NCBI GenBank assembly: GCA_018971105.1
Contig: JAGWVB010000009.1
Location: 1 to 37,281 of the forward strand
Reading direction: 5' to 3'
Source of the DNA: Burkholderiales bacterium
GTDB taxonomy: Bacteria; Pseudomonadota; Gammaproteobacteria; Burkholderiales; Burkholderiaceae_C
DNA: 37,281 nucleotides
In this document: piece by piece, positions 3,370-8,311 of the stretch
How the letters are laid out: each line of letters begins with the position of its first letter
Numbering within the stretch: position 1 is the first letter of the stretch
Made by a program: the position numbers and the translations under genes
The notes under the pieces: model-generated
What the model saw: only the letters and a program-made list of their open reading frames with translations
Database searches by the model: none
Told to the model about the DNA's origin: nothing

Positions 3370-3795
3370 TCAGGACCAGGCGCGCGAATCGAGCGCGCGC
3401 TGGACCTCGCGCTGCCATGGCAGTTCGTGCAGCAGCTGGTTGAGGAAGCAGGCCGCTTCGTGCGCGGTCAGCACCTCGCCGCCGTCGCCGATGAGGCGCA
3501 GATTGGTGACGACCGACATCGGGTCGGCGATCGCGACCACGCCCTGCGTCAGCTCGACCCAGTCCCAGGCCATGCCGGCGGCGCCCCGGTCGCCCTGCGC
3601 CGCCCAGACGGTCTGGCCGGTGGCGGTTCCGGGCGCATCGTCGTAATGCGCGATGAGCGTGCTGAGGTGCTCGAAGCGAGCAGGCGTCGGCTCGCGAGCC
3701 TGCCACAATAGGGGCGGCCATGCGCGCAGCGACCAGGCGGTGGCGGGGAGCGGATGTCGAGTCGCAATACTGTTCGCGTTTTGCTGCATGGCCAA
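3370..3795 (-). CDS. conserved hypothetical protein (~140 aa)
   Basis: Coherent ORF divergent from the luxR gene; start (TTG 3795 or ATG 3789) uncertain. Confidence 0.55.
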   Translation of the reverse strand: MAMQQNANSIATRHPLPATAWSLRAWPPLLWQAREPTPARFEHLSTLIAHYDDAPGTATGQTVWAAQGDRGAAGMAWDWVELTQGVVAIADPMSVVTNLRLIGDGGEVLTAHEAACFLNQLLHELPWQREVQRALDSRAWS

Positions 3796-3823: not shown

Positions 3824-3843
3824 AGCTGTAAACCCTGTCAGGG
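3824..3843. promoter_or_regulatory. candidate lux-box-like element upstream of luxR (AGCTGTAAACCCTGTCAGGG)
   Basis: CT-N12-AG spacing; 13/20 identity to the element at 4619-4638; in the divergent intergenic region. Confidence 0.4.
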
Positions 3844-3878: not shown

Positions 3879-4592
3879 ATGCTCTCGGGTGCATACACGA
3901 GCGTTCTGCAAAGCCGGAGTCGCGATGAACTTCGCGAAGAGATCGTGCGCTTCACGCGGGACCTCGGATTCGAGACCGTCACGGCGGTCACGATGGTCGA
4001 GCATGGGCTCGGGCGTAACGAGGTGTATATCGTCGACAACACGCCGGCAGCCTATGCCGAAGCTTATGTGGACCCGAACAACAGCAAACGGGATCCGGTG
4101 CTGCACCATTGCCGCCGCCAGTCGATGCCGATAGTCTGGAACCAGGCCACCTATGTCGAGCGCGGTGCGGGCGACCTGTGGGAGCATCAGGCGCGGTTCG
4201 GCTATCGAACCGGCATTGCAATGGCCCTGCATCTGCCCGAGGGCAAGCATTTCATGTTGGGCGTCGACCGTGATCAGCCCTTGCCCGGCAACAGCACCGA
4301 GTTGCAGCGTCTCGTCGCGGATCTCCAGCTATTCGCGGTGCATGCCCAGGATGCCGCGATGCGTTTGTTGCTGCCGCCGGCCCACCGGCCGGAACGGCCT
4401 GCACTGACGCCGCGCGAACTGGAATCGTTGCGCTGGACGATGGAAGGCAAGACGGCCTGGGAAGTCGGCGCGCTGCTCGGCATCAGCGAGCGGACGGCGG
4501 TGATGCATGTCAACAATGCGATGCACAAGCTCGATTGCGTCAGCAAACATCAGGCGGTGCTGAAGGCCCTGCGTCTCGGTCTGATCGACTGA
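3879..4592 (+). CDS. LuxR family transcriptional regulator with autoinducer-binding domain
   Basis: N-terminal autoind_bind-like (DPVLHHCRRQSMPIVW, TGIAMALHLPEGKHF) and C-terminal GerE HTH (LTPRELESLRWTMEGKTAWEVGALLGISERTAVMHVNNAMHKL); no luxI in window. Confidence 0.92.
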   Translation: MLSGAYTSVLQSRSRDELREEIVRFTRDLGFETVTAVTMVEHGLGRNEVYIVDNTPAAYAEAYVDPNNSKRDPVLHHCRRQSMPIVWNQATYVERGAGDLWEHQARFGYRTGIAMALHLPEGKHFMLGVDRDQPLPGNSTELQRLVADLQLFAVHAQDAAMRLLLPPAHRPERPALTPRELESLRWTMEGKTAWEVGALLGISERTAVMHVNNAMHKLDCVSKHQAVLKALRLGLID

Positions 4593-4618: not shown

Positions 4619-4638
4619 ACCTGTAAGAGCTGACAGTT
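4619..4638. promoter_or_regulatory. candidate lux box upstream of the peptide gene (ACCTGTAAGAGCTGACAGTT)
   Basis: CT-N12-AG core with imperfect dyad (7/10 half-site symmetry), 76 bp upstream of the peptide ATG. Confidence 0.6.
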
Positions 4639-4673
4639 CCGTCGATGAATGTCCGCTGCTTCAATGCGTCCAA

Positions 4674-4714: not shown

Positions 4715-4879
4715 ATGAAGAGCCTTTTGAACCTCGTTCGCCGCACCCAAGTCGCACAACCCCTGAAGGCGCCGCAATTGCTGCCGGTGGCCGATCTCAA
4801 GAAGGTCGGCGGCGGATTGCCGCGCGTTGGCGGGCTGACCGGCAACTGTACCGTTTCGCCGTCGGGCGTGACGTCCTGA
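4715..4879 (+). CDS. double-glycine leader precursor peptide (54 aa), candidate substrate of the adjacent C39 exporter
   Basis: MKSLLNLVRRTQVAQPLKAPQLLPVADLKKVGGG|LPRVGGLTGNCTVSPSGVTS; DLKKVGGG fits the ELxxIxGG leader pattern; GGAG upstream of ATG; directly upstream of HlyD and C39-ABC genes. Confidence 0.75.
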   Translation: MKSLLNLVRRTQVAQPLKAPQLLPVADLKKVGGGLPRVGGLTGNCTVSPSGVTS

Positions 4880-4949: not shown

Positions 4950-6206
4950 TTGGTGGTAGCGAGTCCGCGTCCGCTGTTCCGGCCGGAGGCCATCGAGGCC
5001 CAGCGGCAGCAGTGGCTCGGCCGGGTCCAGCTCGCGCGACCGCTCGCTCTGGGTTGGATCACCGCCGGCGTGATCTGCACCGCGGTCGCCATCGGTGCGT
5101 TTCTCGCGCTGGCGCATTACACGCGCAAGACCACCGTGGCCGGGGTCCTCGTCCCCGACCGCGGGCTCATCCGCCTCGTGCCCGCGAGTGCCGGCACGGT
5201 CGTCGAACGCGATGTCGTCGAGGGGCAGTCGGTGCGGGCCGGGCAGACGCTCTTCATCCTCGCGCTGGCGCGGCCGCTGCTCGCCGATCCGGTGCAGTCG
5301 GAGGTGCGGCGCAGTCTCGACGAGCGCCGCAACAGCCTGAGCGCGGCCGTGCGGGAGCAGGAGGCGCTCGAGCGGACCCGGCTGGTGGCGCTGGACCGCC
5401 GGCTCGATGCGCTGGCCACCGAGCTCGTGCGCATCGATGCCGAGGCCGCGCTGCAGCAGCAGCGCATCGCGCTGGCCCAGCAGGCGCTGGCGCGGCTGCA
5501 GCAGTTGCAGGCGGACCATTTCATCTCGGCGGCGCAGGTGCAGACGAAGTCCGAGGAACTGCTGGGCCTGCAGGCGGCGGCGCAGGCGCTTGCGCGCCAG
5601 AAGGCGGCGCTGCAGCGTGACCGCGCCGAGATCGACGGCGAGCGGCGTGCATTGCCATTGCTCACCGGCAGCGCGGTCGGCGGCATCGAACGCGACCTCG
5701 CGCAGGCCGATCGCGAATCCGCCGAGCAGGATGCCGACCGGCACCTGCTGGTGCAGGCACCGCAGGCGGGCACCGTCGCGAGCGTGCTTGCCGAGGTCGG
5801 CCAGAGCGTATCGCCGGCTTCGGCCCTGGCGACCCTGGTCCCTGCCGGCTCGAAGCTGCAGGCCCGACTTTATGCTCCTGGCAGTGCCGTCGGCTTCGTC
5901 CAGGCCGGGCAGCTCGTGCGCATGCGCTACGAAGCCTTTCCGTACCAGAAATACGGCCAGCAGCTCGGCCATGTGGTCGAGGTCTCGCGCGTGCCGCTGG
6001 GCGCCGCCGAACTGGCGGCGCTGACCTTGCCCGCCGCCGGCGGCAGCTCCGAGCCCTTGTTCCGCATCACGGTGGCGCTGGATCGCCCCGCCGAGTCGAT
6101 GCCGCTGGCGGCCGGGATGCGGCTGCAGGCCGATGTCGTGCTCGAGCGTCGTCGGCTCGTGGCCTGGCTGTTCGAGCCGCTGGTGGGGCTGCGGAGGCGC
6201 TTGTGA
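4950..6206 (+). CDS. HlyD family secretion/periplasmic adaptor protein
   Basis: Single N-terminal TM segment, KTTVAGVLVPDRGLIRLVPASAGTVVERDVVEGQSVRAGQTLF (lipoyl half), coiled coil, C-terminal VVEVSRVPL; TTG/GTG start uncertain. Confidence 0.9.
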   Translation: MVVASPRPLFRPEAIEAQRQQWLGRVQLARPLALGWITAGVICTAVAIGAFLALAHYTRKTTVAGVLVPDRGLIRLVPASAGTVVERDVVEGQSVRAGQTLFILALARPLLADPVQSEVRRSLDERRNSLSAAVREQEALERTRLVALDRRLDALATELVRIDAEAALQQQRIALAQQALARLQQLQADHFISAAQVQTKSEELLGLQAAAQALARQKAALQRDRAEIDGERRALPLLTGSAVGGIERDLAQADRESAEQDADRHLLVQAPQAGTVASVLAEVGQSVSPASALATLVPAGSKLQARLYAPGSAVGFVQAGQLVRMRYEAFPYQKYGQQLGHVVEVSRVPLGAAELAALTLPAAGGSSEPLFRITVALDRPAESMPLAAGMRLQADVVLERRRLVAWLFEPLVGLRRRL

Positions 6207-8311
6207 TCGGTCGCCGGCACCGCGTTCCGGTCGTGCTGCAGACCGAGGCTGCCGAATGCGGCCTCGCCTGCCTCGTGATGGTCGCCGCGGCGCACGGGCT
6301 GGAAAGCGACCTGCCGACGCTGCGGCGGCGCTTCTCGCTCTCGCTCAAGGGCGTGACGCTGGCCGAGATGGTGCACATGGCGCATGGGCTGCAGTTCAAT
6401 GCGCGCGCGCTGCGGGCCGAGCTCGATGAGCTGAGCCAGCTTCAGCTGCCCTGCGTGCTGCATTGGGATCTGAGCCATTTCGTCGTCCTCGTCGGCTGGC
6501 GCGGCGGGCGCGCCGTGATCCACGATCCGGCGCGCGGCGAGCGCCGCGTCGGCATGGATGAGCTCTCGCGCCATTTCAGCGGTGTCGCGCTCGAACTGCT
6601 GCCGGCGGCCGGCTTCGTGCCCGCGGTGGAGCGCCGGCGCGTGACGCTGCGCCAGCTGATGGGTCCGGTGCTCGGACTCAGGCGCTCGCTGGGGCAGATC
6701 CTCGTGCTCGCGCTGGCGCTCGAATGCTTCACGCTGCTGAGTCCGTTCTTCATGCAATGGGCCGTCGATGGCGCGATCGTCAGTGCCGATCGCGATCTGC
6801 TGCTGACGCTGGGGCTGGGCTTCGGGCTGCTGGTCCTGATCCAGGGCGCGACCTCGCTCGCGCGCTCCTGGGCCGTACTGGTGCTGTCGGTCTCGCTCAA
6901 CCTGCAGTGGCTGGTCAATGTGTTCGCGCATCTGCTGCGGCTGCCGCTGGTGTGGTTCGAGAAGCGGCATATGGGCGACATCTGGTCGCGCTTCGGTTCG
7001 GTGCAGCAGATCCAGCGCACGCTGACGACGAGCTTCATCGAGGCCTTCCTCGACGGGCTGCTCGTGCTGTTGACGCTCGTGATGATGCTTGTGTACAGCG
7101 TTCCGTTGAGCGCGGTGGCGGTGACCGCGGTCGCTGCCTATGCGCTGCTGCGCTGGGCGCTGTATCGCCCCTTGCGCGCGGCGAGCGAGGAGGCGCTGGT
7201 GTTCGATGCCCGGCAGTCCAGCCATTTCCTGGAATCGCTGCGCGGCGTGCAGGCGATCAAGCAGTTCAACGCGCAAGGGGACCGGCAGTCGCGCTTCTCG
7301 AGCCTGGTCGTCGAGACGATGAATGCGCAGGTGCGGGTGCGCAAGCTCGAGCTCGCGTTCGCGGTCTGCAGCCGCGCGATCTTCGGGCTCGAGCGCGTGG
7401 CGGTGATCTGGATCGGCTCGCTGCTGGTGATGGACGGGCGCTTCTCGGTCGGGATGCTGTTCGCCTTCTTCTCGTACAAGGAGACCTTCGCGCTGCGCAC
7501 GAGCGCGCTCATCGACAAGGGGGTGGAGCTGACGATGCTGCGCCTGCAGGGCGAACGGCTCGCGGACATCGTGCTGACGGCGCCCGAGATCGTCGGCGGC
7601 GAGGTGCTGCGCCGCGGCGCCGCGGCGCCTGCGACCATCGAGTTGCGGGACATCCATTTCGCCTACAGCGACGGCGAGGACGAGGTGCTGCGCGGCGTGA
7701 GCCTGACGATCGAGGCTGGCGAGTCGGTGGCCATCGTCGGCCCCTCGGGTTGCGGCAAGACGACGCTGCTGAAGATCATGCTCGGCATTCTCGAGCCGAC
7801 GTCCGGACAGGTCCTGATCGGCGGCGTGCCGCTGGCGCGGATGGGTCTGCAGGCCTGGCGCGAGGAGGTCGGGGTCGTGATGCAGGACGAGCCGCTGTTC
7901 TCGGGGTCCATCGTCGACAACATCAGCTTCTTCGGTGCCGAGCCCGATTCGGAGCGCATCGAAGCGTGTGCTCGCATCGCCGCTGTACACGATGAAATCG
8001 AGGCGATGCCGATGGGCTACAACACCTTGATCGGCGATATGGGCACGGCGCTGTCGGGTGGGCAGAAGCAGCGCCTGCTGCTGGCGCGGGCGTTGTACAA
8101 GCAGCCGCGCTTCCTGATGCTGGACGAGGCCACGAGCGCGCTCGATGTCGACCGCGAGCGGACGGTGAACCAGGCGATCAGGCAGTTGGCGCTGACGCGG
8201 GTCATCGTCGCGCACCGGCCCGAGACCATCGCCTCGGCGGGCCGCGTGATCGCACTCAACGAGGGCCGCGTGGCGCAGGACCTGCGCAGCGTTCAGGGCA
8301 CGGCGCCCTAG
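6203..8311 (+). CDS. C39 peptidase domain-containing ABC transporter (PCAT, bacteriocin/peptide exporter)
   Basis: C39 motifs [15 protein letters not shown] (catalytic Cys), [10 protein letters not shown] (His), IHDPARG (Asp); TM domain; Walker [41 protein letters not shown] overlap with hlyD-like gene. Confidence 0.95.

Follow-up and report, generated by a model that had tools for sequence, protein, structure and literature searches.

The stretch of DNA analysed here (the window, 37,281 nucleotides of a Burkholderiales genome) holds a short open reading frame between a luxR-type gene and the genes of a peptide exporter, and the question raised by this locus is whether the frame is a gene and, if so, whether its product is a bacteriocin or a signal. 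Features of the locus, and of two other contigs of the same genome, are listed in Table 1. The genes are compactly arranged in the order divergent DUF4902, luxR, peptide, HlyD and C39-TMD-NBD transporter (PCAT). The luxR start was placed at ATG 3879, with AGGAG ahead of it. The catalytic Cys, His (in LSHFVVL) and Asp (in IHDPARG) of the C39 domain were all present in the transporter sequence, and no other C39 domain was found in the genome, in keeping with the original prediction that the locus encodes a cognate C39 exporter for the peptide. The genes downstream resemble mnmG, rsmG, parA and parB in sequence, and we take this part to be ordinary housekeeping DNA. No luxI was seen in the conserved module and, judged by gene order only, no immunity-like ORF.

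Table 1. Coordinates of the features discussed (window positions unless a locus is named).
Feature	Position	Strand	Basis or remark
DUF4902 (RsaM-type) gene, divergent from luxR	3370..3795	-	Pfam PF16245 E=0.001; homologue adjoins luxR in 66/68 loci
lux-box-like site CTGTAAACCCTGTCAG between DUF4902 and luxR	3826..3841	.	position shared by most relatives
LuxR-type regulator, 237 aa: autoinducer-binding domain and GerE HTH	3879..4592	+	Pfam PF03472 6e-26, PF00196 1e-13
lux-box-like site CTGTAAGAGCTGACAG	4621..4636	.	94 nt before peptide ATG
Double-glycine precursor ORF, 54 aa	ATG 4715 to TGA 4879	+	MKSLLNLVRRTQVAQPLKAPQLLPVADLKKVGGG (leader), then LPRVGGLTGNCTVSPSGVTS (core)
Double-glycine leader, 34 aa, DLKKVGGG at end	4715..4816	+	leader divergence tracks C39 domain
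Core, 20 aa LPRVGGLTGNCTVSPSGVTS	4817..4876	+	stop codon 4877-4879
Conserved motif unit LPRVGGL, presumed signal	4817..4837	+	motifs of relatives
HlyD-type membrane fusion protein	4950..6206	+	PF13437 5e-13; TIGR01843 1e-25
Peptidase-containing ABC transporter, C39-TMD-NBD	6203..8311	+	PF03412 1e-32, PF00664, PF00005
Second, unlinked GG-peptide gene, contig C277 of window genome	L274:1152-1304 (also L281)	-	...VSGG then QTVYLEKATVRPTQTVYLE
LuxR paralogue and boxed GGDEF locus, contig C490 of window genome	L273:7978-8694 and 6309-7415	both -	

The frame can also be read as a longer form of 76 amino acids from an ATG at 4649. The start at 4715 is supported by its distance from the lux box, since the 94 nt found in the window match the spacing of about 93 nt that most homologues show ahead of the ATG of the short form. 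The 54-aa peptide had no family match in Pfam or NCBIfam. Direct tblastn with it against 60 relatives gave mostly noise, with a sole convincing match (4.7e-4, in genome G007), and an apparent second copy of the precursor in the window genome was discarded as a chance match. As the direct search was too noisy, homologues were reached via the exporter: 80 loci, each encoding a close relative of the transporter, were fetched from a species-level genome collection, and the regions upstream of transporter matches among congeneric genomes were added. A precursor was found between LuxR and the exporter wherever the contig was long enough and LuxR was present, and removal of duplicates left 68 distinct precursors in Burkholderiales. 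Every one of these follows a LuxR-type regulator; LuxR, HlyD and PCAT genes were present in all 68 loci and a divergent DUF4902 (RsaM-type) gene in 66. The set was gathered partly with a motif filter. Few precursors are likely to have been hidden by it, because the sole LuxR-bearing locus first listed as precursor-less (L116) proved to carry one, with two copies of APRSRW; this locus, in which no HlyD gene was seen, stands outside the 68.

In the closest relative (L128; PCAT 94% identical) the precursor is in frame and consists of MKTFLNIVCRKPVAPSLKAPLVLQPSDLKKVSGG, the cleavage point and LPRAGGLTTNGVTAPPAGTSST. Its DLKKVSGG lines up with the DLKKVGGG of the window, so the predicted cleavage after the third Gly, proposed at the outset, is in the right register, and DLKKVGGG also fits the ELxx[VI]xGG-like motif of double-glycine peptides exported by PCATs. 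Together with the 68 homologous precursors, this in-frame relative upholds the reading of the ORF as a coding double-glycine precursor; by the measure of conservation, not of length, the frame at 4715-4879 is a real gene. Its LuxR/DUF4902/lux-box context points to signalling rather than to a bacteriocin. The DUF4902 assignment of the window protein itself is a match of 19.4 bits to PF16245, below the curated cut-off of 25; a remote homologue, beside the LuxR gene of L271, scored 34.7 bits, above that cut-off. The latter locus (L271:2609-3463, in genome G228 of another family of the order) combines a LuxR relative (42%), the DUF4902 gene, a lux box and a small GG-like ORF; with neither HlyD nor PCAT adjoining that ORF, it was not counted.

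Core lengths ranged from 6 to 37 amino acids, and the window core, described beforehand as unusually short, is of ordinary size within the family; its dissimilarity to known microcins stood. The cores carry a motif of five to seven residues, usually xPxxxW (for example SPFHRW, or LPRGTW in four copies). The xPxxxW form was present in 57 of the 68, with mostly L, S, A or G at position 1, K, R or N at position 3, mostly G at position 4 and mostly G or T at position 5. In the smallest core (L090) the motif stands alone, as SPFHRW, and 26 precursors have two to four copies. Copies agree inside one precursor and differ between species. Copy pairs were identical in protein in 29 of 31 cases, mostly with differing DNA, and the codon differences between copies comprised 63 synonymous and 4 non-synonymous changes, the expected non-synonymous share being 0.68 (p=8e-27). 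These counts strongly indicate that it is the motif on which purifying selection acts.

Alignment of homologues, one of the checks suggested for the original prediction, showed the leaders of the 68 precursors ending in [VA]xGG or, in some, GA. The window precursor falls in a small Trp-less clade, with LPRVGGL in the window, L072 (Rubrivivax rivuli) and L073, LPRAGGL in L128, LPRIGGL twice in L063, LPRVS twice in L065, L066 and L142, and LPRVG in L071 and L074. In sister clades the LPRVGGL-type unit is replaced by LPRVS, LPRVG or xPxxxW. One of the two copies in L063 lies at the extreme C-terminus, ending in ...GGL. Since LPRVGGL, LPRIGGL and LPRAGGL recur as one unit in relatives, the second GG of the window core is, by this comparison, part of the motif and not a second processing site. 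Thus the second VGG is present as first reported, while the alternative or sequential cleavage proposed for it falls away. The single Cys is likewise present as described; it is not conserved, Cys occurring in 5 of the 68 cores. A distant PCAT locus without LuxR in Photobacterium jeanii (L140:4109-4612) also encodes GG precursors with repeats (DEEGRPIGGGGS, twice), and repeated-motif GG peptides may, from this case, be wider than the LuxR-linked family.

The box upstream of the precursor is a palindrome (consensus CCTGTAAGAgcTGACAGT) at about -93; 67 of the 68 precursors are preceded by a match to CTGT[AC]AGN6CAG, and most loci have a second box (AGCTGTAAACCCTGTCAGGG) between DUF4902 and luxR. 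The strict pattern CTGTAANNNNTKNCAG had two sites in the 4.82-Mb window genome, both at the peptide locus, and across 81 congeneric genomes it marked mainly this locus. A wide regulon, sought by loose matching (two mismatches), was rejected, with 125 sites against 229 in the reversed control and thus no excess. The search for further GG-leader peptides in the window genome, also advised at the start, succeeded: the second, unlinked gene has a box 95 nt upstream and a core with QTVYLE twice. With a single C39 transporter seen in the genome, this second peptide presumably shares the pump of the window locus. By profile search, relatives were found in seven more congeneric genomes (G018, G025, G093, G097, G098, G003 and G100; loci L239, L280, L282, L283, L284 and L285), no second-family precursor being resolved in G100. 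The cores of this second family have partly repeated motifs and mostly LSE or LE ends (GFILSE, GFLLSE, GVLLSE), and the box lies at -89 to -95 in seven of the eight genomes, the window genome counted in. A LuxR paralogue (L273; 49% identity) has its own divergent DUF4902-like neighbour and, downstream, a GGDEF (diguanylate cyclase) gene preceded by a lux box; no peptide of its own was found for it in the window genome. In two other genomes, boxes also precede an RHS-repeat protein (L229:566-3501) and a large protein that looks related to it (L236:2-803). These sites suggest, from their positions, that the system may act on the second peptide, on c-di-GMP and perhaps on contact-dependent competition; every link in this network is inferred from the boxes.

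Which partner reads the motif was approached by co-variation across 55 loci with complete genes, 45 of which formed the Trp-type (W-type) subset. In partial Mantel tests, which are inflated by phylogeny, the motif was associated with the LuxR LBD given PCAT, HlyD and DBD (r=0.30 for 55 loci and r=0.38 for the 45 W-type loci, both p<=5e-4), and no association was found between the motif and PCAT, HlyD or the LuxR DBD given the LBD. The leader co-varied with the C39 domain (r=0.235, p=5e-4) and, more weakly, with the LBD given PCAT (0.159, p=0.018). Co-variation of the motif with DUF4902 was as strong as with the LBD (r=0.24 each), the partial of each on the other being marginal; in the W-type subset the values were 0.147 (p=0.036) for the LBD given DUF4902 and 0.035 (p=0.29) for DUF4902 given the LBD. 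With DUF4902 and the LBD on a par in this respect, these data point to the LuxR/DUF4902 module, undivided, as the probable reader of the peptide. Linkage, or DUF4902 as the sensor, may possibly lie behind the motif co-variation. The LBD columns that best tracked the loss of Trp were 49, 39 and 75 (LasR 50, 40 and 76), all ligand-pocket positions, and those tracking motif position 1 include 126, 114 and 37, also in the pocket; the division into loci with and without the Trp probably reflects a single clade. The list of pocket positions was checked against the residues given in two papers (PMC7230538; PMC12061423).

By sequence (PF03472 and GerE) and by predicted fold (pLDDT 89; best matches QscR, RhlR, SdiA and LasR), the window regulator is of the LuxR family, and its sequence resembles LasR, RhlR, QscR and SdiA. 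The textbook AHL receptor is a LuxR-type protein, and many LuxR solos have yet to be matched with a ligand. In LasR, 3-oxo-C12-HSL is hydrogen-bonded by Tyr56, Trp60, Asp73 and Ser129 (PMC7230538). The family LuxR proteins retain only Asp73 of these four, unlike an AHL-responsive LuxR: Thr mostly stands in the place of Tyr56, Tyr or Phe in that of Trp60 (59 of 61) and Gly in that of Ser129. In LasR numbering, Thr75 is replaced by Val and Thr115 by Ala, and Asp73, Pro74, Trp88, Tyr93 and Gly113 are kept. LuxI (PF00765) was absent from the window genome, which thus has no LuxI/LuxR pair; it was found in 3 of 81 genomes of the genus, none of the three with the peptide exporter, and in 3 of 35 carriers reached via other loci.

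We lean, by a modest margin over even chances, towards a gene product that is processed into a short linear pheromone peptide, exported and recognised by the LuxR LBD with or together with DUF4902, in a positive feedback. LuxR would bind the lux box at 4621-4636 and switch on the peptide, hlyD and PCAT genes; cleavage by the C39 domain after VGGG would free the core from its 34-aa leader, and HlyD/PCAT would pump the core out. The signal would be the short core motif (LPRVGGL here; xPxxxW, often in two to four copies, in most relatives), trimmed out of the core and returned to the cell, for example by an oligopeptide permease. Recognition of the returned motif, as above, would close the autoinduction loop. 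Trimming, re-import, direct binding, autoinduction, LuxR at the boxes and the C39 cut after VGGG are steps that we infer. The weakest are trimming of internal copies and re-import; the locus encodes neither a dedicated protease for the former nor a dedicated peptide importer for the latter.

The LuxR protein might instead be a solo that eavesdrops on AHLs or some other exogenous small molecule, with the peptide serving as an effector that is secreted under LuxR control (for instance bacteriocin-like, surface-active or metal-binding). A small-molecule ligand is possible, given that Asp73, Trp88 and Tyr93 are kept; the GG peptides that PCATs export often prove to be bacteriocins, and the box before RHS-repeat proteins in two genomes means that competition genes can share the control. 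Solos for exogenous AHLs or plant compounds are also common (PMC10134790). The equivalents of Tyr56, Trp60 and Ser129 are nevertheless lost, and an effector would sit poorly with cores of 6 to 12 amino acids in half of the family, exact multi-copy motifs, a conserved module without an immunity gene, and a motif whose divergence follows that of the LuxR LBD but not that of the exporter; this account is unlikely, though it deserves some weight.

It is more doubtful that the peptide is a signal sensed by the DUF4902/RsaM-type protein or by an outside receptor, with LuxR providing no more than the transcriptional output, perhaps after the peptide has released it from DUF4902. The presence of DUF4902 in 66 of 68 loci and a motif co-variation as strong as that of the LBD speak for it, as do RsaM-LuxR fusions in Massilia, which suggest contact (PMC10710839). 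However, the W-type association with the LBD survives correction for DUF4902 and the reverse does not, and the columns that change with Trp are LuxR pocket columns. Least credible, and very improbable, is the idea of a microcin-like bacteriocin that can be cut either at GGG or at the second VGG. The double-glycine leader and C39 exporter would suit it, but the 14-mer LTGNCTVSPSGVTS expected from a second cleavage requires a cut at a GG that belongs to the motif unit repeated at the L063 C-terminus and that most homologues lack; moreover, the conserved module has no immunity gene and the Cys is not conserved.

With class C LuxR solos (PluR with photopyrones, PauR with dialkylresorcinols) the pheromone reading shares a LuxR-type receptor without LuxI and a presumed self-made non-AHL ligand; of the own-cell ligand that binds, which defines that class, what was observed here is co-variation of the motif, and the presumed ligand differs in being a ribosomal, exported peptide. 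A review of solos ties none to a peptide exporter, leaves HlyD unmentioned and has no peptide among class C ligands (PMC10134790). The closest earlier case of a LuxR protein with a peptide is PipR, of the PipR/OryR subgroup of PAB solos, which was reported to respond to the tripeptide Ser-His-Ser, for which an ABC peptide importer is needed (PMC4981722). The proteins of this subgroup have peptidase and importer flanks and a plant-compound response (HEHEAA later), and neither a peptide precursor nor a C39 exporter of their own; here the neighbours are DUF4902, GG peptide, HlyD and PCAT in place of a proline iminopeptidase and peptide transporter. Divergent rsaM-luxR solo pairs (type 6 topology) are on record in Pelomonas, Kinneretia, Albitalea and others, with peptides unmentioned (PMC10710839). 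The divergent pair is the same and the taxa overlap (the Pelomonas CA6 locus, L132, is type 6); the new part is the peptide-HlyD-PCAT cassette behind luxR.

In pneumococcal Rtg, the RtgR/RtgS Rgg-pheromone pair controls a PCAT and GG peptides (PMC7018657). Rtg is similar in placing a cytoplasmic pheromone regulator over a PCAT locus with GG peptides; it differs in being Gram-positive, in its Rgg-family regulator and in a pheromone, RtgS, separate from the GG peptides. RRNPP systems (PlcR/PapR, Rgg/SHP) would share a short linear exported peptide of five to eight residues and a cytoplasmic transcription-factor receptor. Their receptor family is unrelated, the regulator here being LuxR-type and not a TPR-domain protein, and the present family has C39/HlyD export over two membranes and a lux box promoter. 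Class II microcins also have a GG leader, HlyD and PCAT, whereas the present cores are far shorter, with a repeated motif, LuxR control and, by gene order only, no adjacent immunity gene. In the literature searched (most subscription journals lie outside it), neither a paper that connects a double-glycine peptide to LuxR in these bacteria nor the combined LuxR/DUF4902/GG-peptide/PCAT arrangement was found, and a family that pairs a LuxR-type regulator with a tiny exported peptide instead of an acyl-lactone synthase is apparently undescribed.

That the family forms a new Gram-negative quorum-sensing class is about evenly balanced in our judgement. In such a class, LuxR and an RsaM-type partner would have as autoinducer a short ribosomal peptide (xPxxxW; LPRVGGL here), made from single- or multi-copy precursors via C39/HlyD; receptor-ligand co-evolution would diversify the peptide between species, and in some species a second GG-peptide gene would be co-regulated. 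The findings suggest that mutual sensing in some Gram-negative bacteria relies on short peptides acting through a LuxR protein. If the peptides are read in this way, the 68 precursor-receptor pairs would amount to a species-specific, genetically encoded ligand code legible from genomes and would offer ready pairs for studying how the LuxR pocket changes specificity. Gram-negative quorum sensing would then be tied to peptide pheromones of the Gram-positive style, and the divergent rsaM-luxR solo arrangement known in these genera would have a function.
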